Of a stretch of DNA of 40,154 nucleotides, positions 89 through 32,227 are shown piece by piece (within the stretch, counting starts at the first letter, position 1; the number at the start of each line of letters is the position of its first letter). The position numbers were made by a program, and so were the translations under genes. This DNA comes from Stentor roeselii (Eukaryota; Ciliophora; Heterotrichea; Heterotrichida; Stentoridae): assembly GCA_006503475.1 (NCBI GenBank), contig RSEH01000345.1:1-40154 (forward strand), written 5' to 3'. The notes below the pieces were generated by a model. That model was not told where the DNA came from, did not search any database, and worked only from the letters and a program-made list of their open reading frames with translations.

Positions 89-2679
89 AGTAATTAGCAA
101 TCTATTTACTAAAGCCCAACATTCTTTCATATAAAATCTTAATTCTACTAACGATTTACAATGCTAATACGAAATATTTATAATCTTCTACTCAAAAATC
201 TATTATGTATTATTTTTAATTAACAAAACTAGTATATTTCAAATAGCTAATATTTTCAAGTTGATGCCTCACTAATTCTTTTCAATATGAAACTTGAAAT
301 TTTGAATAATATCAGTGTCAAGACACTGAATTATCGTACTGCTTGCTTGGAGGATGCTAATATTTAATTAAGATAATTAAAGCATCTTTTCAGATGAGAA
401 ATAATATATAGACATAGAATTCTCTCTATTAAAAAGAAATTTTTGTAAAAGCCCATCATTTAAAGTTTGGTTTAATCCAGTACATTTTGCTGCTTTAAAA
501 GTTACTCATGGATTATCATACTTAATATATTAAAGCCACAGGGTTTACTGACTTAAAAAGAGTGCAGTCACGAGAACAGTTACTCTATCTCGGTGATATT
601 TCAAACATCTCGAGATGTTTTTGAAAATTTATATTTTTTGAAGTACTCTTATCCAAGGTGTTGTCTTGTCAGGATTAAAATTCTGGATTATGCTCAAAGC
701 ATATTGTCTTAGGACTTTGAATTATATTGTTTTGTGTCATTTTTTCTATTGAAGCAGATCCACCATAGAAATGATAGAAATTTAATCATTTTCGTCTAAT
801 ACTTTTTTAGATTATTTAATTTTATGTAAATTTCAAAGATGTTTCTTGAATTATATATGTTCATATAAGGAATAATGAGTTCTTGAGCTTTTGAAACCAA
901 CTCATATCATGATACTTTTTATTTATTTTCAGTTACCTGATCATTCTGCAGCAGTTTTAGAGATATTGAAATTTCGTAACAGAGATTAAAGATATTGCCT
1001 AAATTTTTTATTAAGCTGCACCTTTGCTTTTTCCGGATTTTCGTGACCTCTCTTTCAGAATGACCTCAATTTTGCTTTATGGATGCTTCAAAAAATTTCT
1101 ACTAATCATAAATTATTCTTCCGACTTTATGCAAAGAAATTTTCAATATATGGGCTGGAGATCTTTTCTAAATATTCTACACACACTTTATGCAAATGGT
1201 TTTCAAAGATAATTTCTGTAAGTAAAATTTAATGTGAAAAATACTGATTGATTATTACCTGGTGAGCAGCTAAAGACTTAGATGCTGAATCTTCAAAAGG
1301 AACTTTTTGACAATTACTAGAATTGAGTGTGTAAAGTTCGTTCTAAATCATTAGTTGCTTGCTTGATGATAATATATGAATAAGCCTCACAGTTTTTTCT
1401 TATGATAAAATGATAAAGTACTAAGTTAGGTGTCTTTGTTTATAAACTCCCTGTGAAAGTATTCAAGAAAATTAGCTTTCTGTATTTTATATAGTAGATT
1501 ATTTGATTTTTGTTTCAATTAGTTTTCAGACCAGAGTAATTAGAATTTTCAAAGTTTTAGAATTTAAGAATCTTTCTTTTAAGAATTTTTGGAAAATATT
1601 TGTTTGTGGGGATATTGATTCAAAAACCTTTCTTTGAGATGAGATTGTTAGGATTTGACATTAGTGTTCTGAAGTAGATTCATTAAAAATACATCTTCAG
1701 ATGAATTTAAAAACTTTAATTGATTTTGCATCTTATGCGATCAATAATGATACATTTCAGATATACCTAGAAAATATTATTGAACATATATATATTTGTT
1801 TAATAAAAATGAATAAAAAATATAGGATCAAAATATATGCAAGAATTCAATTTTTACATATTTTCTTAGTATTTTGATATCAAATTTTGTACTTAGCTAA
1901 TAATCTAACTAGACTTAAAAGGGTCTGAACAATTCAAACATAAAATTTATGATTATTCCTAAAAATACCTTTATAAAAATCTCTAAATCGAATAATCATT
2001 CTAAAAACTCTTAATTAGACATAAAAACTCTAATTTCTTCAAATTATATAAACAATTTCTAATTTCCATTTCCATTTTTAAATTACTGACGAAATGTATT
2101 GTATTGATTTCTATAAGTATCAAATTAGCAATACCAACTTGAAAAAAGTCCATCATCACAGCAAAAAGAAGCAATTCACTATTTAAATCTTAAAAGCCTT
2201 TTTAATCATAGGTAGCAAATCTAATTTTACTCGAATATTTTATATAAAATAATTAGAGGATCTCTGAATTAGTCTAAAATCATATAAATTCAATATTTTG
2301 ACTAGCCAAAGCATCAAATCCAACACATCATAAAGTTAAGCATATATAGAATATAAAATAAGAGCATGTTGATAATGGAAAATTGAAAAATGGTAATTAG
2401 AATGATCTAGAACACTGAAATCATAAGAATTCAGTGCAATAAAAAACCCTCTAACAATTAGTTGAGCATAAAATTTAGATTGTAATCCATAAATGCTATA
2501 TCAAAGCGATTTAAAAAATTTAATTTTTTAATTAGCCTAATCAGAAAGTGTTTCCTGATTAAATTGAAAGAATAAGTAGGTCAAAATGAGTTTCAATAAA
2601 ATTTTCTGTTGGTTTCAAATAAAATCTTCAAAATGAAAAAACATTTCATTTCAATTATCCTACATTTTTTATAAAAATT
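89..2679. other. Gene-free subtelomeric spacer
   Basis: About 2.6 kb of very AT-rich sequence between the telomere and the first gene. I see no intact gene. A 62-codon frame at 1024-1212 (+) lies inside a diverged repeat copy (about 470-1215) and is not convincing as a gene. Two short perfect inverted repeats occur at 312-329 (8-bp arms, 2-nt spacer) and 603-620 (18-bp palindrome). Both are near chance expectation for this composition. Confidence 0.6.
860..1160 (-). repeat. Decayed dispersed repeat, copy A
   Basis: This segment aligns in the same orientation with 14355-14640. Shared blocks, in order: GAGTKCTTGARCTTTT, ACCARCTCAT, a TTTATT-rich run ending in TTTCTGCA or ATTCTGCA, CCTTTGCTT, a TCTCTCTTT block, and TTTATGCAAAG. 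By eye the identity is about 60-65% with indels. An outlying shared block GTACATTTTGCTG (about 480 here, 14281 in copy B) suggests the repeat extends to about 470. On the minus strand, the frame carrying the shared blocks has TAA and TGA interruptions. It is most likely a relic of a transposon or gene family. No family is assigned. Confidence 0.55.
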
Positions 2680-5600
2680 ATGAGGAACGGAATGGAGATT
2701 GCAGAGCCTAAAAAACAGCAGAAAACATTTTGGACTAGAAAGAACAAAATCTTAGTTTGGTCTGGTATCGCTGTAGCTATATTCACAGTTGTTGGAATCA
2801 TAGTTTACTTTACAAATTTCCACAACAAAGATGGAAGTGGTTATAAGCCAGTTGGCAAGAAGCAAGCTGTTTACGTAAAATCATCTAAATCAAACCATTC
2901 GAACGATACCCGATTATTGACAGAAAATTCTACATCTTTCGATTTGACCTTCATTGTTCTAGAACAAACCGAAACCGACTATGTATTTGTTGCCATTCCA
3001 GGACTCATCACCCAGAGCGATGTTAAAAATTTGCGAGGACTTGAATCAGACAACCAGCAAAACTCTGCAGATCAAGAAGAGAACTCTGAATCAAAAGGAT
3101 TTTATGGTCTCTTCGTGATAAAAGCTGACATCAACAAAGGAGAAATAACTTCATTCAAATTCCCTCCAGAGGCCGGAGAGTCTTTTTCAGGGACTATAAA
3201 AGCCTCAGCCCAGGCCTGGCTGCTGAATTCCGAGAAGGAAAAAAGTCTTTTGAGTTCCAAACGCAAGGCAACCAATGAGCAGGTAGAACGAATAGGAAAA
3301 TATTCCCTAAGCACACAAGTTGCAATCGACGAAGATGATGAATACGAAATGGTTACTTCAAGCTTCAAGCGTCCCAAAACTGGTGAAAGACTTTTGACTG
3401 AAGACCCTTCACTGGGAATAAGCGACATGGACATTAAAAAGAAGAGCTTTGTTAATAAAAAGACTGGAAACATTGATAAAACGGAAATTAATGGCTATGC
3501 AAACCTCGACCTCATCTCCAGCTTAGGCGAAAAAGAAGAAAAAAAGCAAGTAGAATTGACCATCGAAAGCAAAACATCATTTGAAAAGGCTTCAATTGAG
3601 ATAAGTGATGACGATGTTCGAATGTTATTGGATAAAATTGAAAACGAATTCACTTTTGAAGATTATGACTTGGAAGGCACTCAGAGTCCAAAAGTTACGG
3701 GAAATGACACTAACGACTCGAATAATACTCAAAACGACCACGAATCTAATTCTTCAAGTAACGGAAACGGCCGCTCGTTGTTAATTTCAGAGTCCTTGAA
3801 CATCAAACTCTTTGATATACTTGGAGTTGAAGTAAGAATGGTGTTTAGTCTTGTTGAAAGTGGCTCAAATCTCAAAGCCTCTTCATCGATAACTGTAGGA
3901 GGACTGCTCAGCATTGATTTTGGGTCTTATGATTTAGGCTCTGGAATACTCACAAAGGCGAGACAGATGATTACTTTAAAAAACATTCTTGAGCAAAACA
4001 TTAAAAAGATCCTGGAAGATCTGACAAAATATGCTGATTCTGTTCTTAATTCTTATCAACAAGAACTAGTCTCAAAGTTCTCCGAAATACTGAAATTTTT
4101 AAATGATCTTGAGGCTAAAGTCACGGCAAACTTCGCTGAAATGGAAAAAAGAGTGAATGATTACTTGAATAAAGTCAATGCAAAGGTTAATGAAATTCAA
4201 CAAAAAGTAGAAACTGATGCTAAACAAAAACTAGAATTGCTGAATAAGTACATAAAAGAAAATGATGACATCAAGAATCTTAAAAGCTTGTATGAGCAGA
4301 CCAAGTCTCAAATAACAAAAGACTATCAAGAAACCCTTGCAAAAATAAAAGACATTCAAGAAAATCAAATCCCAAACCTTGAGAAACTCAAGAAAAACGC
4401 GACTGAAGAACTCAATAAAACTTTAGAGGAACTTAAAACCTTCAACTGGCTTAAAAACATTCTTGGCTATTACTCTTCATACATTCAACAAATAGTCACA
4501 AGTATCCAAGCTGAAATAGCAAAAGTTAATGATCTAGAAGCAGCCTTGAGAACTGTGAGAGATCAAGTTCTAACTCAAGTTAATCACAAAGTCGCCCTCG
4601 TTAAATCGCACCTGGATGAATACAAAAACATTGTCCAGTCTCAAGTCCAGGAACTTCAAAACAATCTGAAAGAAATTCAAGATAGGATCAAGTCAGAGGT
4701 AGATGAAAAAGTTGAAGCACTTAACTCAGAAATCAAAGAGTATCAGACACAGATTGAAAAAATCGATAATGATTTAAAAGAATGCGCTGAAGCTGCAAAA
4801 GATGAACTACTTAATCAAAAAGAAGAAATTGAAAACTTAATTGAGCAGAAGAAAAATATTATCGATAATGAATTAGAGCAGCATAGAATTGAACTGCAAG
4901 GCTCGGTTCAGCTGATTAAAAATGAAATTCAAACAAAAAAGGATGAGTTGAGAACTAAAATCAAGGATCAAATTAATCCGTTGCAAGAAAAGGTCAATGA
5001 ATTAGAAGACTCTCTAGAAAAAGAATGGAATAAAGTAGCTGCCATTTATGATGATTGTAACAAGAAAATAAGCCAGATTACTGAAGATCTTAAAAACATT
5101 GAAAACAACTTGAAAGAGACTGCAAATCAAGAACTTTTACTTCTTAAGCAAAATTTACAAGAGCAGTATCAAAATGAATTGAAAAAACTCGAAGAACTAA
5201 AAAAAGTCTCTGATGATTTGAAGGCAAAACAAGAAGAAATTAAAGTCGTTGCAAAAGACTTGCAGACTTTAGCAATAAAGTCTTTGGAAGAAGCTGAAAG
5301 TGAACTTAAAGAAAGAAAAGAGGAAATAATAAGGCAGTATGAAAAACTTACAAGCGATATAGAGAATGAAATCGAATTTAGGAAATGGGTTATCGAGCAT
5401 CAGATCGAAATGAAGAAGCAAGAACTAGAAAACGCAATTGATGAAGAAATAAGAAAGCAAATCGAAGAATCTTTACAAGATCTTCAACATCAAATAGATG
5501 ATCTGAGTACTTTATCTGAAAAAATTGAAGATAAAGTCCTCACTCATGTTGAATTGGTAAAATCAGAGATAATTGATGAACTCATTGCTCAAAGAAACCA

Positions 5601-15258: not shown

Positions 15259-18200
15259 CTATTTATATTCTTCAGTAATTTGAACTAACGGAATATAAGA
15301 AAGAACAGTATCAAAATTCGGTCTTATTTTCGGATCAACAGTCAACATCTTTTTAAGAAATGTTTTAGTCTCCCCAGAAAAATCCAATAATTTATTCTCA
15401 ACATCTTGGGCAGCATTATTTTTATTAAAGCTCGGATCAGTGAAATCCCAAAGTGTAAGTAAATTCAAAAGAACCAATCCCAAGCTATAAACATCAGCTT
15501 TTTCAAGAATGTCTATATCTTCTCTGTTCTCAATAGTTTCAATTTGTAAATCCATTTCAGGAGCGAGGAAGTATTTTGATCTAACATCTTTGAAGCTTTT
15601 AGAAGTCAAGCATTTTTCAGGATCTTTGACAGATGAACAGTGATAGTTCATGATTTTTGTTTGAAATTTCTCGTTTACTGCAATATTCGAGGATTTTATG
15701 TCACTGTGAACGATGCTTAGTTCTTTTAGCAGGCCAAAGGAGTGCACAAGTCTGTATGCTATTTTCAGAAACTTTCTTTCATCAACAAACATATTGGCTT
15801 CTTTCATTTCTTGTATTTTTGTTTCTAAATTCATAGAAAAAGCCTCTATCACGAGAGTAATCGATTTTTTTGTGTAATATGTTCCATAAAACTTGACAAA
15901 ACAGTTCTTCTTTGATGATAGCTTTGAAAGTTTTTCATGAATTTCGATTTCTCTACCTATATCTGCCTGAAGGTCTTTGTTTAAAGAAGAATATTTTTTT
16001 GCGATTATTTTTAAATTTTTATAAGTTCCTGGAAAGACTGAAACTGAGAAATTTGTTCTTTTGTCTTCGTATATTGGAGATGTTTTGTCAAATTTTAAAT
16101 GTTTTTTATCTATGTAAAACTCTTGGGCTATTTCTTGTTCATTTATTTTATTTAAATTGCTATTTATCAAGGTGTGCGATTTTATATGATTGATATGAGC
16201 TTGATTCAAACTATGCAAAGTATTATATGCAGATATTATAGTTGGATGGTTTCTGGGATATACCTTTTGGGCTAAATCAATATATTTATGTAAAGATGTT
16301 TTTGATTTGTCATATTGGTGAGTTGCTTTATATAGTTCATATAAGTCTTTGAAGGTCGATGTTAAGCTTTGATAGTTTCTTGGTATTTGTTTTTCAATAA
16401 TTTGAATTTCTTCTAAAAAGTAACCTTCTGCTCTAAAATAATCCTTTTTATTAAAATAATTGGAACCCAAGATATTACAAATTTCTGCAAGATCTAAATT
16501 TCTTACCCAGTCCTTAATTTTAACAAACAACTGATCAATAATCTTATCATTTCCAGATTCCAAATTAATCATTAATGATCTTTTAATATCCTTAAAGTCA
16601 ACTGGGCCAATATCAAAAGTGAAAGGCCATCCTTCTCTTCTTCTAGACGAGACTAAGTATTTCACATTAATATTCGCATTGTAATACTCTCTTAGCTGAT
16701 TCATTTCATCGAATCCATCAAAAAGTAAAAGGATTTTTCTTTGTTTACTTTTCATTTTTTTATATAAGCTTCCTTCTGTTTTACTCTCTTGGGTGATTTC
16801 GAAGGCCTCTGTTAATCTCTTCAAGTTTATGATTTGAAGTGATTCAATCACTACAATTTTTTCGTATTTAAACTTGAATTGATCACAGTACTGATAGGCT
16901 AACCATGATTTTCCTACTCCAGCTGGTCCATAAATGACGACGAAGTTTGTTTCTTTGAAAAGATTGTGAATATTTTTTGAATCTTTTTTCCTCTGTATGC
17001 AAAAGTTATGGTTTTGATGCACGAAATATCTGATCTTTTGGTCTTCATTTGGATTTGGAATGTAGGGTTTGCTTTTAATACAAATCCTTACTCTTAAATC
17101 CTGTTCTTTTTTCTTCCTATCGCCAATTATCTTCTTAGCCATTCCGCCAATAACTTTATCCTTATTAACTCTAAGCACTTTCAACATCTTGATAGTTTGC
17201 TCTCTAACTTCCCATTGATCTGATTCGCTAAGTCTTTGAACAACTTTCAGAATTTCAAGTAAAAACTCATCAGGAATCCTTTCATAAACGACACAGTTCC
17301 TTAAAAATTCAATCAAAGCAAAGCATTCTTCTAATCTAAGTCTTTCAATCATTGTAAACTCAAATTCCAATACTTTTTTCATTTCTTCCTTAATTTCTTC
17401 CGAGTTCTGCTCAAAAACATCAAAAAGTTCGAATTTAATTAAAAATGCTGAGGTTCCTTCAAATCGGCTCCTTAAAAAATCGCACCGTTTAGAGACTTCA
17501 CTGATAAAAATCGCCGGGTTGATAATTTTAAGAGATTTAAAAACTGCCATAAGTTCAACAGAGTCACTAACAATAACTTTCCAGTACTTTTCAAAGGCTT
17601 TTGAGTCAAGAAGCAGCTTTCGAATGATCTTGAGTTCGAAAATAACAGAAAGTTCAGGAACTGTTTTTTTAATTAAAATTTTAGTTGCCTCTTCCAGTTT
17701 TTCTATCATATTTACCTGCAGAGATTTTGGGAATAGATGACCACTGTTTTTGATGAAATGCATGAAAAGAAACTTCCTCATTTTTTTCGTTAAGACCTGA
17801 CGACAGTAAGAGTAAAAATCGCTTGTCCAGATGAATTTATTTTGCGTGATTTTGAAGAGAAATAGGAAAATAAGGTTTGGGTTACTGCAGGTGTAAGCAT
17901 TGATATCAGCAAGACTTTCAAGTAATCCAATGTTTAAAGTCCCGGTTTTGATGTTTTCATTAACAGAAAGTGATAATTCTGCTGCTTTTTCTTCATTTTG
18001 TTCAAGAAATGACTTCTCCAGCTTCTCGTATTTTTCCTCGGCTTGCTGCTCGGTTTGAATCCATTTAGCTTTGTTTACTTTATTCCCAGAACCGAGAAGT
18101 CCTCGGCAAATCTTGATTTCTAGGGTTTTTCTGTTGATAAAAAGTTTTCTTTGTAGAAGAGAAGGGATTGATTTTAAATATTGAAACTCTGGAGGAGATA

Positions 18201-18330
18201 TACTGTTAAAAGTTCCTACCCAAGTGATTTTCAGGGATTTTGATTCAACTTTAGCATATAGATCAGTGTTCAGTAATGAAAAGGTTACTTTGTAATTTCC
18301 AACTAGATCGAGGATTATAAAATCATTCAT
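15259..18330 (-). CDS. NLR-like fusion: helical N-terminus, P-loop NTPase, TPR-like repeats, pseudokinase
   Basis: 1023 residues, one exon. Residues 1-440 are mostly helical, with a patch near 370-400 (QWEVREQTIKMLKVLR) like ARM/HEAT repeats. A STAND-type NTPase follows: Walker A 468-GPAGVGKS-475, Walker B ILLLFDGFDE with Asp538 and Asp541, and a sensor-like YLVSSRRREGWP about 25 residues later, as in NACHT/NB-ARC proteins. Residues about 610-720 look like paired TPR helices (NYFNKKDYFRAEGYFLEE). From about 765 there is a protein kinase fold. It has Lys in IIAKK and H875-S-D877 in the catalytic loop (HSDIKSSN). The sequence N895-Y-H stands where DFG should be. APE (LAPEM) and DVYSLG are kept. 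Loss of the DFG Asp suggests a pseudokinase. NLR proteins of plants, animals and fungi pair a sensor repeat with an effector domain. A sensing role here is inference. Confidence 0.87.
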   Translation of the reverse strand: MNDFIILDLVGNYKVTFSLLNTDLYAKVESKSLKITWVGTFNSISPPEFQYLKSIPSLLQRKLFINRKTLEIKICRGLLGSGNKVNKAKWIQTEQQAEEKYEKLEKSFLEQNEEKAAELSLSVNENIKTGTLNIGLLESLADINAYTCSNPNLIFLFLFKITQNKFIWTSDFYSYCRQVLTKKMRKFLFMHFIKNSGHLFPKSLQVNMIEKLEEATKILIKKTVPELSVIFELKIIRKLLLDSKAFEKYWKVIVSDSVELMAVFKSLKIINPAIFISEVSKRCDFLRSRFEGTSAFLIKFELFDVFEQNSEEIKEEMKKVLEFEFTMIERLRLEECFALIEFLRNCVVYERIPDEFLLEILKVVQRLSESDQWEVREQTIKMLKVLRVNKDKVIGGMAKKIIGDRKKKEQDLRVRICIKSKPYIPNPNEDQKIRYFVHQNHNFCIQRKKDSKNIHNLFKETNFVVIYGPAGVGKSWLAYQYCDQFKFKYEKIVVIESLQIINLKRLTEAFEITQESKTEGSLYKKMKSKQRKILLLFDGFDEMNQLREYYNANINVKYLVSSRRREGWPFTFDIGPVDFKDIKRSLMINLESGNDKIIDQLFVKIKDWVRNLDLAEICNILGSNYFNKKDYFRAEGYFLEEIQIIEKQIPRNYQSLTSTFKDLYELYKATHQYDKSKTSLHKYIDLAQKVYPRNHPTIISAYNTLHSLNQAHINHIKSHTLINSNLNKINEQEIAQEFYIDKKHLKFDKTSPIYEDKRTNFSVSVFPGTYKNLKIIAKKYSSLNKDLQADIGREIEIHEKLSKLSSKKNCFVKFYGTYYTKKSITLVIEAFSMNLETKIQEMKEANMFVDERKFLKIAYRLVHSFGLLKELSIVHSDIKSSNIAVNEKFQTKIMNYHCSSVKDPEKCLTSKSFKDVRSKYFLAPEMDLQIETIENREDIDILEKADVYSLGLVLLNLLTLWDFTDPSFNKNNAAQDVENKLLDFSGETKTFLKKMLTVDPKIRPNFDTVLSYIPLVQITEEYK

Positions 18331-25839: not shown

Positions 25840-27909
25840 CTAAACTAAATATCTAAGAAGCTCACTTTTCAGTAATTTATGTTGATTGAGCCATTCTTCA
25901 CTATCTTCTGCACTTTTAAAAGCATTAATCTCAACTTTTTCGACTATACTCCAAACATGAATTCCATAAAAATTTCCTGCGGCAATGACTGATTTATCAT
26001 CTTCAGTAAAAAATACTTTTTCAATGCACTCTCGATGATCATCAAAGCTTGCATGCAGAATCATTTTAGCAATATCCCAAACAAGAACTTTTTTATCTAA
26101 ACCTCCAGAAACTGCATAATCTCCATTGTTAGAAAACTTTACTGAGTAAATATCAGAAGAATGACTTTCAAATGCAATTATCTGTTTATATTCTTTAACA
26201 CTCCACAATAAAATAATTCCCTTCTGATCTCCAGAAATAACTTTTTTTTCATCTCTCGAAATATCAACACAAAATACTGATACTTGATGTCCATTCAAAA
26301 AATTCCTAACTTTTTTCATTTTTAAATCCCAAATAATCAAGTTCTTCATAGTCCCCGTTGAACAACTGACCAAAAATGAAAAGTTTTCAGAAAAGCAAGT
26401 CTCTTGAACAATCCCAGAGTGTCCCTGAAGTACTATTTCATGATCATGATCATTAAAATTGTAAATAACGACATCGTTCAAGCATCCATAAGCAGCTAAT
26501 TTATTTTTGAATACTAAAGACCTCAGCGTGAAAGGCTTTAAATGCAAAAAATACTCATTTGGCTCTCCTGATAGTTTTGAGACTCCGATCCTTGAATCTC
26601 GGGAAGCAGAAAACAAAGACCCATCAAAAGTAGTGATTCCGTATATGTGCTCTTGATGGTGGGCTAATGTTTGAATTTTTGATTTTGAATCGAAACTCCA
26701 AATAATTATTGTCTCATCGAGTGATGCTGTGATCACGAGTTTGTTGTCGTATGTTACTGAAACTGATGATACTGGCTCAGTGTGCCCATTCAAGCATGCA
26801 TAGAGTTTACTCAACTGGATATCCCAAATCTTCGCTGAATGATCATCTGACCCCGTGACTATAAATTTTTCGTTTTTAAATAAAGCTATCGAGTTAATAT
26901 CAGAATCATGAATTTTTTTTGATTTAACTTTAACAAAAGGCTTAACATTCCAAATGTATAACTCTTCCCCAATACCTGAAAAGTAATTATTTTCCGAAGA
27001 AATTATACCACAGTAAACACTACTCGTTGTAATGATTTTTTCAACAAAGGTCTTAGATTTAATATCCCAAATAGTTATTTGTTTTTCACTACTTCCTGAA
27101 ATAATCAACTTACTATCAGGACTAAAAGCTAAACAAAGGACAGCTCCTGAATTCTGAGAGTAAAAAATCGAATTTTTCCATGATTTCGTATTCCAGACAA
27201 TCACAGACTTATCAAACGAGCCACTTGCTATTAATAAAGAATTTCGACTAACAGCCAAACAATCGACTGAAGCTTTATGTTTAGTAAGACACATGATTTG
27301 ATTTCGATTTGCTAAATCCCAAACTCGAACAGAGCTATCATCACAACCCGAGACAAGATTCTCTCCTTCATTAAAAATCGCGACACAGTTAAACCCTCCA
27401 TTATGACTTGAAAGAAACTTGCTTTGTTGAAGTAATCTGACCTTACCAGGATCAACTTCAACTCTGATCAAATTTTTCGAGTAAGTTTTTTTTACTGTTG
27501 AAAGAAGCTTCTCGATTTTAAATTCATTCAAAATTATCTCTGAATCATTCACGTCTTTTACGCCTTTTGTGGAAGATCTCTTGAGTTTGCTTTGACGTAG
27601 AAGTGACACGTATATTGGAATTAAATTGTCGATTTTTTGTATCGTGTTGTTGGATTCAGATTCAATTTTCTTGATAACTTGAGCTGTTTTGGAAAATATT
27701 TCTTTCTTTAGAGTTTCTAATCTTTGGATTATTGTTTTGAGATCTAGATCTAGGATATTTCTCTGGAATTTTGTCATTTTTAAATGAAGTTTCTTGTAGT
27801 TGTGATCTCCTGGCTTTTGTAAGTGCTCACCCATGTGCTTTAAGCAGATGTTGATGTCTGAACAACTGCAGTTATACCACGGGTCGTCTGAACAATCTTT
27901 ACAATTCAT
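25840..27909 (-). CDS. B-box-like zinc finger, coiled coil and 12 WD40 repeats
   Basis: 689 residues. The N-terminus holds a compact Cys/His cluster: C3, C6, C14, C16, C22, H25, H29, with His36 further on. This spacing is close to a B-box zinc finger. Residues about 45-125 are helical and charged, likely a coiled coil. From about 165 to the end I count 12 WD40 blades, many ending in W-D or close variants (VRVWDL, VIVWNT, ITIWDI, LYIWNV, AKIWDI, IIIWSF, LIIWDL, ILLWSV, VLVWDI, IHVWSI). Two central blades are weak (KIGVS-type and VIYNF). Twelve blades would fold as two propellers. The protein is probably a soluble scaffold. The B-box plus coil plus propeller order recalls TRIM-like proteins, but there is no RING. 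The partner is unknown. Confidence 0.88.
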   Translation of the reverse strand: MNCKDCSDDPWYNCSCSDINICLKHMGEHLQKPGDHNYKKLHLKMTKFQRNILDLDLKTIIQRLETLKKEIFSKTAQVIKKIESESNNTIQKIDNLIPIYVSLLRQSKLKRSSTKGVKDVNDSEIILNEFKIEKLLSTVKKTYSKNLIRVEVDPGKVRLLQQSKFLSSHNGGFNCVAIFNEGENLVSGCDDSSVRVWDLANRNQIMCLTKHKASVDCLAVSRNSLLIASGSFDKSVIVWNTKSWKNSIFYSQNSGAVLCLAFSPDSKLIISGSSEKQITIWDIKSKTFVEKIITTSSVYCGIISSENNYFSGIGEELYIWNVKPFVKVKSKKIHDSDINSIALFKNEKFIVTGSDDHSAKIWDIQLSKLYACLNGHTEPVSSVSVTYDNKLVITASLDETIIIWSFDSKSKIQTLAHHQEHIYGITTFDGSLFSASRDSRIGVSKLSGEPNEYFLHLKPFTLRSLVFKNKLAAYGCLNDVVIYNFNDHDHEIVLQGHSGIVQETCFSENFSFLVSCSTGTMKNLIIWDLKMKKVRNFLNGHQVSVFCVDISRDEKKVISGDQKGIILLWSVKEYKQIIAFESHSSDIYSVKFSNNGDYAVSGGLDKKVLVWDIAKMILHASFDDHRECIEKVFFTEDDKSVIAAGNFYGIHVWSIVEKVEINAFKSAEDSEEWLNQHKLLKSELLRYLV

Positions 27910-30547: not shown

Positions 30548-32227
30548 ATGGGTTCCTGTTGCATAAGTGCCAAAAAAAAGCTCGAACTTTTCAACACTTA
30601 CTCAAAAATCTTCGACTCATTCGACTTTCGCTTATCCCCATCCGACGAGTTCACCTTTATCCAAAGATCATCACGTGAGTTATCCTTCGGTTATGAATCC
30701 GAAGACTACCTGAAGCAGATCTACTCCGGTTATCGAAACTTTCTATTAAAATGTTGTGTCGAGTTCTTCATCCGAAGAGACCTTAACACCCGAAAAGTCT
30801 TAATCGCGCCTTTTCAAGCTCCTCCACTTGTAGACGAGATGTGGCAACTGGCGATTTTATACACTGAAAAATATAAAGAACTATGCAAAGCCTTAGTCGG
30901 CAGGACTATTTATCGAGCCCCAAGTAAAAGATTAGTCGGTTTAACTGAAACTTTCAAGCCAGTCTGGCGTTTTTATGATTCAAGTTACTGGAGATATGAC
31001 CGAAATTTCACTGTCTGGGTAAAAACTAGTCAAATTCAGGATTTTTTTAGTAGGTGCTATGAGTACTTCTTTTCATTAAGGAAAGGAAATGGGATAAGAA
31101 TAAGATTTTTAAAAATTCGGAAACATCTTACAGCTCTTTCTAAATTTTTAGAGATGAGTCATTCACAGAAAAATTATTCAAGATGGAACAGTCAGATCCC
31201 CTCATCTCATGTTTATTATAATGGAACTATTCGAGATAACCCTGGAGATATTTTAAAGAAGGTTGTTTCAAAGTTGCCTTTAGTTTTAAAAGATTTGGTT
31301 AACCAGAAGTACTGTACTGGAGAATACACTGATCTTTACCTTCAAGAGTACAGCAGATTCATGACCTTGCTTTACTTTACCAACACGTCACTTACTCCAA
31401 GTGAAGAAGTTGACCAGGTCTGGCATATTCACCAGTCACTTTCATTTGAATATGAAAAGTTTTGCATTCGAGTCTATGGAAAGATCATCAATCACAGCCC
31501 TACCACTGGTGGCCATTTAGAAGATCAGAAGTATAAAGCTTATTATTTCTATACTATTGAGTTCTACTCGTTTATATTCAGAGAAACTCCTGTCATTGCC
31601 TTGTGGCCTCCAACGGAACTTCGCTTTAGTCCAGGTTATTATCAGGGAAATTGGATTAGCTTGTATCGACTTTTCACTTGTATTGCTCGAGTTGTTTTTG
31701 TGTTGAAAGGATCACATCCTCAGAACTTGCAAAGGGAAATCGCTTCGGCTTATTATAATTGGCAGGGACAACATATTTTTAAAAAACAAGTTTTTTATAT
31801 TAACTTGCAGAGACCTGGGAAAGAAAGGAATTCAAATCAGATGAATTTTTTGTTTTGGACTTCGTATAGGGTTAGTGGAACTGGAGGGAAAGGGAAGAGG
31901 GAAAAAGATGATGATGAGGATGATGAGGAACAGGGTTCTCAATATGATGGAGGGTCTTGCTCGGGAGATACTCCTGATCCGAATGATGTGGACTCTCCTG
32001 CTTCAGTGGGGTCTGTAAATTCTGCAGGTAATTCACCTGGAGGAAGCTATGGTGGATACTCAGGTAATTCTGGGGGAGATGCTGGGTATTCTGGGGGAGG
32101 AGGAGATGCTGGATGTTCTGGGGGCGGTGGAGATGCAGGCTGTTCAGGGGGCGGAGGAGATGCAGGCTGTTCTGGAGGTGGAGGAGATGCTGGCTGCTCG
32201 GGTGGAGGTGGCTGCTCAGGTGACTAG
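30548..32227 (+). CDS. Glycine-rich domain-containing protein (GRDP/DUF1399-like), N-myristoylated, Gly/Cys repeat tail
   Basis: 559 residues. The start MGSCCIS is a strong N-myristoylation signal (Gly2) with Cys4 and Cys5 as palmitoylation sites, which suggests membrane attachment. Two copies of the GRDP/DUF1399 signature are visible. The first is VDEMWQLAILYTEKYKELC near residue 95. The second, more canonical, is EVDQVWHIHQSLSFEYEKFC near 287, with Trp292-His-Ile-His295 and then YGKIINHSPTTGG. After about residue 445 the protein is acidic and then low in complexity. The tail repeats the 9-residue unit GGGGDAGCS about five times, encoded by a 27-bp minisatellite. GRDP proteins of plants have a similar Gly-rich region. 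The Cys in every unit is unusual and could give disulfides or lipid attachment. The family call is by motif. The molecular role of the family is poorly known. Confidence 0.87.
   Translation: MGSCCISAKKKLELFNTYSKIFDSFDFRLSPSDEFTFIQRSSRELSFGYESEDYLKQIYSGYRNFLLKCCVEFFIRRDLNTRKVLIAPFQAPPLVDEMWQLAILYTEKYKELCKALVGRTIYRAPSKRLVGLTETFKPVWRFYDSSYWRYDRNFTVWVKTSQIQDFFSRCYEYFFSLRKGNGIRIRFLKIRKHLTALSKFLEMSHSQKNYSRWNSQIPSSHVYYNGTIRDNPGDILKKVVSKLPLVLKDLVNQKYCTGEYTDLYLQEYSRFMTLLYFTNTSLTPSEEVDQVWHIHQSLSFEYEKFCIRVYGKIINHSPTTGGHLEDQKYKAYYFYTIEFYSFIFRETPVIALWPPTELRFSPGYYQGNWISLYRLFTCIARVVFVLKGSHPQNLQREIASAYYNWQGQHIFKKQVFYINLQRPGKERNSNQMNFLFWTSYRVSGTGGKGKREKDDDEDDEEQGSQYDGGSCSGDTPDPNDVDSPASVGSVNSAGNSPGGSYGGYSGNSGGDAGYSGGGGDAGCSGGGGDAGCSGGGGDAGCSGGGGDAGCSGGGGCSGD
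32060..32225 (+). repeat. 27-bp minisatellite coding the GGGGDAGCS tail
   Basis: In-frame tandem units of about 27 bp (GGAGATGCAGGCTGTTC core) at the 3' end of the GRDP-like gene. The first unit is a variant with Tyr in place of Cys. GC content is over 60%, far above the rest of the window. Copies differ at synonymous sites, so the array is not brand new. Unit number is likely to vary between strains. Confidence 0.85.

Follow-up and report, generated by a model that had tools for sequence, protein, structure and literature searches.

The window analysed here is a stretch of 40,154 nucleotides from the heterotrich ciliate Stentor roeselii (GenBank assembly GCA_006503475.1, contig RSEH01000345.1), which is contig C282 of a 44.39-Mb assembly of 522 contigs; paralogs were sought in this same, single genome. 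On its minus strand (15259-18330) lies a single open reading frame (ORF) without interruption, which encodes a protein of 1023 amino acids (aa) and ends in the stop codon TAG. At the base composition of the window, the probability of 1023 open codons arising by chance is about 1e-37. A preliminary interpretation made from the letters of the window (hereafter the sequence-only reading) had described this protein as an NLR-like NTPase fused to a pseudokinase, built of a helical N-terminus, a STAND-type P-loop module, TPR-like helices and a kinase fold. Comparison with the paralogs of each part suggests that the gene joins an incomplete member of a STAND-TPR family to a kinase domain that has probably become inactive. 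The features of the protein are as follows.

15259..18330, minus strand: the whole ORF, 1023 aa.
18061..18330, minus strand: N-terminal head module, residues 1-90, conserved across 19 loci in an alignment.
17041..18033, minus strand: region that looks helical by eye, residues 100-430, perhaps HEAT-like toward its end, aligned with the C402, C20 and C383 paralogs.
16495..17013, minus strand: STAND-type NTPase core, residues 440-612, with Walker A GPAGVGKSW (468-476), Walker B LLLFDGFDE (534-542) and SSRR (561-564).
16471..16500, minus strand: place of a missing block (ARC/winged-helix by its position), at about residues 611-620, located by comparison with STAND paralogs.
16201..16470, minus strand: two to three TPR-like repeats, residues 621-710, similar to the TPRs of C402, C381, C469 and others.
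15292..16119, minus strand: pseudokinase, residues 738-1013, assigned by its Pkinase match, its motifs and its place in a tree.

When the whole protein was used to search the genome, the matches split in two. Scores were obtained for 45 matches among 584 candidates, comprising the window itself (1), nine STAND-type places (C402, two on C469, C20, C339, C383, C162, and two sets of remains on C494) and 35 kinase places; paralog counts are lower bounds. Paralogs with the same layout, which the sequence-only reading had led us to look for, did not appear, as no second gene with both halves was found among the scored matches and the layout was seen once. Paralogs of the N-terminal half (C402, C469, C20, C339, C383, C162) and paralogs of the kinase half instead sit in separate genes, which supports a fusion whose join was placed by eye near the start of the kinase domain, at about residue 735. 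The fused kinase domain has a stand-alone sister (L006, described below), as an integrated domain would, but the carrier is an incomplete NLR. A layout found once could also reflect an assembly error that joined a STAND gene to a kinase gene; we consider this very improbable, given that the frame is open across the join, that a gene with a head, a coiled coil and a pseudokinase is present on C385, and that no other scored match is closer than 47% to either half (the nearest relatives of the two halves are 47% and 35-37% identical).

Aligned with its paralogs, the window protein keeps the features of a STAND-type core, namely Walker A, Walker B with its acidic tail, and SSRR with the sensor Arg. 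In Pfam, the P-loop NTPase at about residues 450-552 is matched by AAA_14, nSTAND3, NACHT and NB-ARC, all under their own cut-offs, while the general AAA model just passes (22.2 vs 21.2 bits). A profile of six NTPase cores gave the plant NLR At5g66900 as its best match in the Protein Data Bank (PDB; E 7.6e-5). The motifs and this profile match uphold the core of the proposed STAND-type module; the module is nonetheless incomplete, since 137-211 aa found in 9/9 paralogs are missing from it. Fuller STAND paralogs are arranged in the order head, helical-looking region, NTPase core, about 200 aa, and TPR array, and the segment that follows the core measures 199-211 aa in eight of them and 137 aa in C20, compared with 5 aa in the window protein. 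Several of these paralogs have IHD or VHD at the expected place, which we take to resemble the MHD motif of NLRs; a regulatory ARC/winged-helix block with such an MHD-like motif is absent from the window protein. Without this block, the gene is better described as a derived fusion than as a complete NLR switch: as far as sequence comparison goes, the window protein falls outside the definition of an NLR at exactly this point.

The TPR-like helices that had been noticed downstream of the core were recovered as two to three repeats by comparison with the TPR arrays of paralogs, the best of which share 32-40% identity with them along about 95 aa, but Pfam recognises no TPR in the window protein. 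These repeats, visible by paralog similarity only and followed by the kinase, are at most a possible C-terminal repeat sensor. In the STAND paralogs that were scanned, Pfam confirmed TPRs in 4/4 (C402, C383, C162, C63), and more distant STAND-like genes, matched with a segment of C469, lie on C40, C63 and C75. With regard to the N-terminus, the helical character described earlier holds by eye for residues 100-430, although residues 1-90 form a separate conserved module ahead of this region. Compared with the PDB, residues 100-430 gave a sole match below 0.01, to the engineered protein OR366 (E 0.0014), and no stretch of the region passes alone; residues 1-410 have no match in Pfam.

The C-terminal half matches Pkinase of Pfam at residues 774-1011 (E 4.8e-21), and the best PDB sequence matches of the window protein are kinases, with MKK7 first (E 3.8e-9). 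As the sequence-only reading had stated, the kinase fold carries HSD at 875-877 and, where DFG would stand, NYH at 895-897. Lys 778, Asp 877, the catalytic-loop residues K and N, and APE are kept, and it is the change of the DFG Asp to Asn within a kinase fold that makes the domain a pseudokinase by its motifs. Judged by these motifs, the window kinase has probably lost activity. HSD was rejected as a mark of inactivity: the position between H and D is variable across the family, and HSD occurs in L023 too.

Motifs were read in 36 kinases, namely the window kinase, L066 (C385), 21 kinases from the whole-protein search and 13 more; the 21 and the 13 together cover 34 of the 35 kinase places, the one left out (C200:7134-7592) being a fragment with a stop. 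The idea that all family members lack DFG proved wrong, as the DFG Asp is kept in 31/36; those without it are the window kinase (NYH), L066 (HCH), and L079, L083 and L089 (Asn in each). We also rejected the window kinase as the sole case of loss (0/21 others), because 3 of the 13 further kinases (the last three just named) lack the Asp as well. L066 (C385:15010-18231) is a second head protein with a C-terminal pseudokinase, such that the DFG Asp is lost in 2/2 head-kinase fusions found, compared with 3/34 other kinases.

Closest to the window kinase is L006 on C19, which shares 47% identity over 279 aa and has HRD and DFG intact. The two are sisters with support of 1.000 and 0.998 in two FastTree runs, and their branch lengths are alike (0.62 and 0.55 in the first tree; 0.67 and 0.47 in the second). 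With a nonsynonymous divergence (dN) of 0.40 between them, compared with a synonymous divergence (dS) of 1.67 (pairwise dN/dS about 0.24), the kinase domain has been under constraint as a protein. This bears on two further explanations. A chance gene fusion that is en route to decay, and open only through its youth, would agree with the broken relatives in the family (C494, C25, C239) and with the absent domain block; we consider it unlikely in view of the kinase dN/dS and of 1023 codons that are open even though the two halves are as distant from their nearest relatives as stated above. Less likely still is a domain that binds ATP, or works as an active atypical kinase, under the control of the NTPase: kinases such as CASK and haspin do work without a normal DFG, and the window kinase retains Lys 778, Asp 877 and the catalytic-loop K and N, but its metal-binding Asp has become Asn and the Gly of the motif His, where the sister and 31/36 kinases keep the Asp.

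Most of the 21 aligned kinases have a different N-terminus of about 280 aa. Homology of this N-terminus with the 100-430 region of the STAND proteins was tried with a profile of seven kinases and rejected (hhalign probability 0.3%). The N-termini vary, with a Cys/His-rich stretch seen by eye in L013 and L023 (in which Pfam names no zinc finger) and a long coiled coil seen in L092, which is the complete ORF around L089. In the kinases L092, L093 and L094 (C241, C257 and C239), which lack the DFG Asp, the N-termini were judged by eye to be a long coiled coil, of another type, and short and of low complexity, respectively. An N-terminus that looks unusual is found in 5/5 kinases without the DFG Asp, a judgement made by eye that covers the N-termini of 3 of the later 13 kinases. 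Kinase paralogs occur in small clusters on C64, C50, C178, C241, C88 and C19, which points to local duplication.

The head module (about 80 aa, with a consensus of about KGGY.V...I.RKLFIN.KTLEL..C.GLLGS) defines a family of its own. With the head of C383 as a query, 19 loci were found in the genome, the window included (L050-L068); the head of C220 recovered all of these with E no higher than 0.005, together with a copy on C239 that contains stops and a match on C40 at E 0.79. The best match of the head in the PDB had an E of 1.1, and nothing convincing was found for the 19 members in Pfam. The C-termini behind the 19 heads were read by eye from ORFs, as far as the loci reach, with Pfam applied to some. 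Seven loci combine the head with a STAND module (C402, C20, two on C383, C469, C494 and the window), and seven with TPR-type repeats in which an NTPase was not seen (C396, C13, C11, C429, C465, C220 and C25; C13 was tested with Pfam). The head is followed by a coiled coil at three loci (C93, C373, C226), by Kelch-like repeats under the Pfam cut-off on C44, and by a coiled coil and a kinase domain on C385 (Pkinase, 4.2e-14). With one head and different C-termini at 19 loci, the window gene is part of a variable multigene family. Several copies are broken or split between frames (the second C383 copy, C469, C494, C25 and C465) and may be pseudogenes, contain tiny introns or reflect sequence errors. 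Beside the head-TPR gene on C396 (L052, C396:6670-9900), a gene on the minus strand at 1986-3230 looks by eye like a dynamin/GBP-type GTPase, with the P-loop GCYNKGKTFLLN.

At 16/19 loci the head is no more than 20 kb from a contig end, compared with 9.0 expected if loci were placed at random on these contigs (a count of 16 is reached in 7 of 100,000 draws); the corresponding counts are 11 vs 6.4 within 10 kb and 9 vs 4.0 within 5 kb, and on contigs longer than 90 kb 11/13 heads are within 20 kb of an end vs 3.2 expected. The 21 comparison kinases lean toward contig ends as the heads do, more weakly: 11 lie within 20 kb vs 8.2 expected (12% of draws reach 11), 7/14 on contigs longer than 90 kb vs 3.5 expected (3.7%), and 0/21 within 5 kb. 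The placement of the heads is only suggestive, because contig ends are not necessarily chromosome ends and because repeats break contigs. Some contigs do end in telomere-type sequence. Positions 1-87 of the window, at the contig start, are a repeat of the type (CCCTAACA)n, variant units included, and exact triple copies of this unit occur 220 times on the forward and 327 times on the reverse strand of the assembly (overlapping matches counted), with 0 for the reversed control. Among the places listed, triple copies stand at contig ends on C11, C13, C40 and C64, whose lengths are known, and in the first bases of C26, C48, C56 and C70. The same unit makes up the telomeres of Blepharisma, another heterotrich, in which TGA is described as being read as Trp (PMC9942806). 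In the window, the standard code leaves 12 long ORFs open, with TAA or TAG as their stops, which would suit a Stentor-like heterotrich that uses this code.

Two other genes of the window may be mentioned. At 25840-27909 lies a WD40 protein with a Cys/His-rich N-terminus, by eye of the same style as that of kinases L013 and L023, and at 30548-32227 a protein whose Gly-rich tail consists of tandem GGGGDAGCS repeats and whose GRDP-like match is weak (E 0.013).

A wide reading of the head family, which we regard as doubtful, would make the lineage-specific GLLGSG head the adaptor of a modular recognition network made up of STAND-TPR sensors (one of which would have a self-homogenising repeat array), TPR arrays free of an NTPase, Kelch-like proteins, coiled-coil proteins and dead kinases. 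Head-head assembly would relay a signal from sensor to output, as animal death-fold domains do, genes would turn over near chromosome ends, and the window gene would be the node that bears a pseudokinase.

Repeat arrays of the STAND-TPR paralogs were compared for their internal conservation. In L035 (C402:176307-180026), a STAND-TPR gene, 10 consecutive TPR units of 42 aa have a mean pairwise identity of 85.1% over 420 aa, and the array on C381 reaches 79.3%, both values being computed without divergent edge units; when edge units are included, mean unit identity is 72% for C402, 71% for C381, 58% for C13, 54% for C469 and 44% for C175. In a study of fungi, high internal conservation was defined as more than 85% identity along 100 aa or more, and was reported for 21.2% of NLR TPR domains, whereas the share among repeats of this kind was 0.4% in plants, 0.8% in animals and 1.2% in Dikarya (PMC4986451). 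Repeat identity was measured here in five of eleven arrays, among which C402 is the sole one to reach this level, just at the threshold. Conservation at this level is found in the C402 paralog, with its ten near-identical units, but not in the window protein itself, whose residues 621-710 hold too few repeats to qualify. The ratio of nonsynonymous to synonymous differences (pN/pS) pooled over the C402 repeats is 0.85, with one column (K/A/E/T) at pN 0.37 and pS 0, descriptive values that come from one array in one genome.

Given these results, we tentatively favour a fusion within the STAND-TPR (NLR-like) family, the product of which would be a non-catalytic accessory or integrated-decoy subunit; the family may have an immune role. 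The N-terminal half of the window protein is homologous to proteins with a head, a helical region, an NTPase, a block of about 200 aa and a long TPR array, but has neither the block nor most of the TPRs. The C-terminal kinase, placed by alignment and tree as the sister of a C19 kinase with intact motifs, has lost the DFG Asp while remaining under constraint, as the open frame, the dN/dS and the core motifs show. Nucleotide binding may persist, given the motifs kept, but a protein without the winged helix would not be a self-contained ADP/ATP switch and might pair with complete STAND-TPR paralogs by means of its head and its NTPase core. The pseudokinase, without catalysis, would then be a copy of the C19-type kinase that serves as bait or for docking, and would signal when bound or modified, as an integrated decoy.

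Almost as likely is an ordinary signalling scaffold, in which the pseudokinase of a STAND-derived platform would dock partner kinases or activate them in the normal regulation of the cell (in the cortex, cilia or regeneration), with no role in recognising non-self. TPRs and pseudokinases are common parts of scaffolds, and most members of the large kinase family keep the catalytic Asp residues (31/36 examined); against such a scaffold speak the recognition-type features of the family, namely varied C-termini behind one head, broken copies, a near-identical repeat array and placement near contig ends, as well as the location of NPHP3_N matches in other genes (see below).

Several observations weigh against the integrated-decoy fusion that we favour. 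On the kinase side, the loss of catalytic residues is not specific to head fusions, because the DFG Asp is missing from three headless kinases too; two head-kinase fusions are few, and a change from DFG to NYH is in itself no proof of inactivity. A dS of 1.67 is near saturation, and dN/dS averages both lineages. On the N-terminal side, the match to At5g66900 stands above a background of RecA (E 0.0002) and Ras proteins (from 0.0028), and Pfam, as noted, gives no TPR in the window protein. The name "winged helix" rests on position and on the MHD-like motif, because a profile of the NTPase and the following block from five paralogs matched nothing in the PDB at E up to 0.1. Head-head association is assumed. 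A single-sequence AlphaFold model of the whole protein was uninformative (mean predicted local distance difference test score, pLDDT, 34.9; predicted template modelling score, pTM, 0.22) and was not used.

A literature search of partial coverage found no description of a ciliate family of such NLR-like proteins, and a term search of the main text of a Stentor regeneration paper (PMC9371601) returned none of NACHT, NLR, tetratricopeptide and pseudokinase. Among known systems, MLKL-type pseudokinases resemble the window protein in that the pseudokinase is C-terminal, and differ in their executioner domain, an N-terminal four-helix bundle, none having been recognised by Pfam in residues 1-410 here. 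NPHP3 is a STAND-TPR ciliary protein; the window family shares the STAND NTPase with it, and paralog repeats match TPR_NPHP3 among other TPR models, whereas NPHP3_N in the window protein is matched only at the P-loop, with 19.0 bits, under the cut-off. Close homologs with a housekeeping role, which the sequence-only reading had named as one objection to itself, were looked for by way of NPHP3: the six NPHP3_N matches of the genome (C8, C89, C515, C259, C52 and C178; 25.2-43.4 bits) lie in other genes outside the family, and orthology with NPHP3 is unsupported, bearing in mind that the NPHP3_N model is not very specific and has matches in 9/14 control genomes.

Plant NLRs with an integrated kinase, such as barley Rpg5, whose kinase we take to be C-terminal, likewise combine an NTPase core and a kinase domain in one receptor-like protein; unlike them, the window protein has TPR-like repeats in place of leucine-rich repeats (LRR) and an NTPase without its regulatory part. 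Kinases are among the commonest integrated domains in plant NLRs (PMC9528084). The fungal NB-ARC/NACHT-TPR NLRs are similar in that the paralogs have a STAND core followed by kinesin-light-chain-type TPRs and varied domain partners, and in that the C402 array lies at the published level of repeat conservation; a protein kinase domain also appears in the domain table of fungal NLRs (Dyrka et al. 2014, PMC4986451). They differ in that the window protein lacks the ARC/winged-helix block and contains few repeats, in that the head matches no Pfam family, and in that the present comparison concerns one genome rather than populations. The window protein would share the mode of action of fungal NB-ARC-TPR NLRs, or of plant NLRs with an integrated kinase, only if the steps proposed above hold. 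Animals, plants and fungi have well-studied NLR-like receptors, and if the Stentor family is a true recognition system, it would offer a single-celled model of the way in which STAND sensors, repeat diversification and pseudokinases combine beyond these three classical kingdoms, and could be used to test if catalytic loss follows fusion to a receptor.

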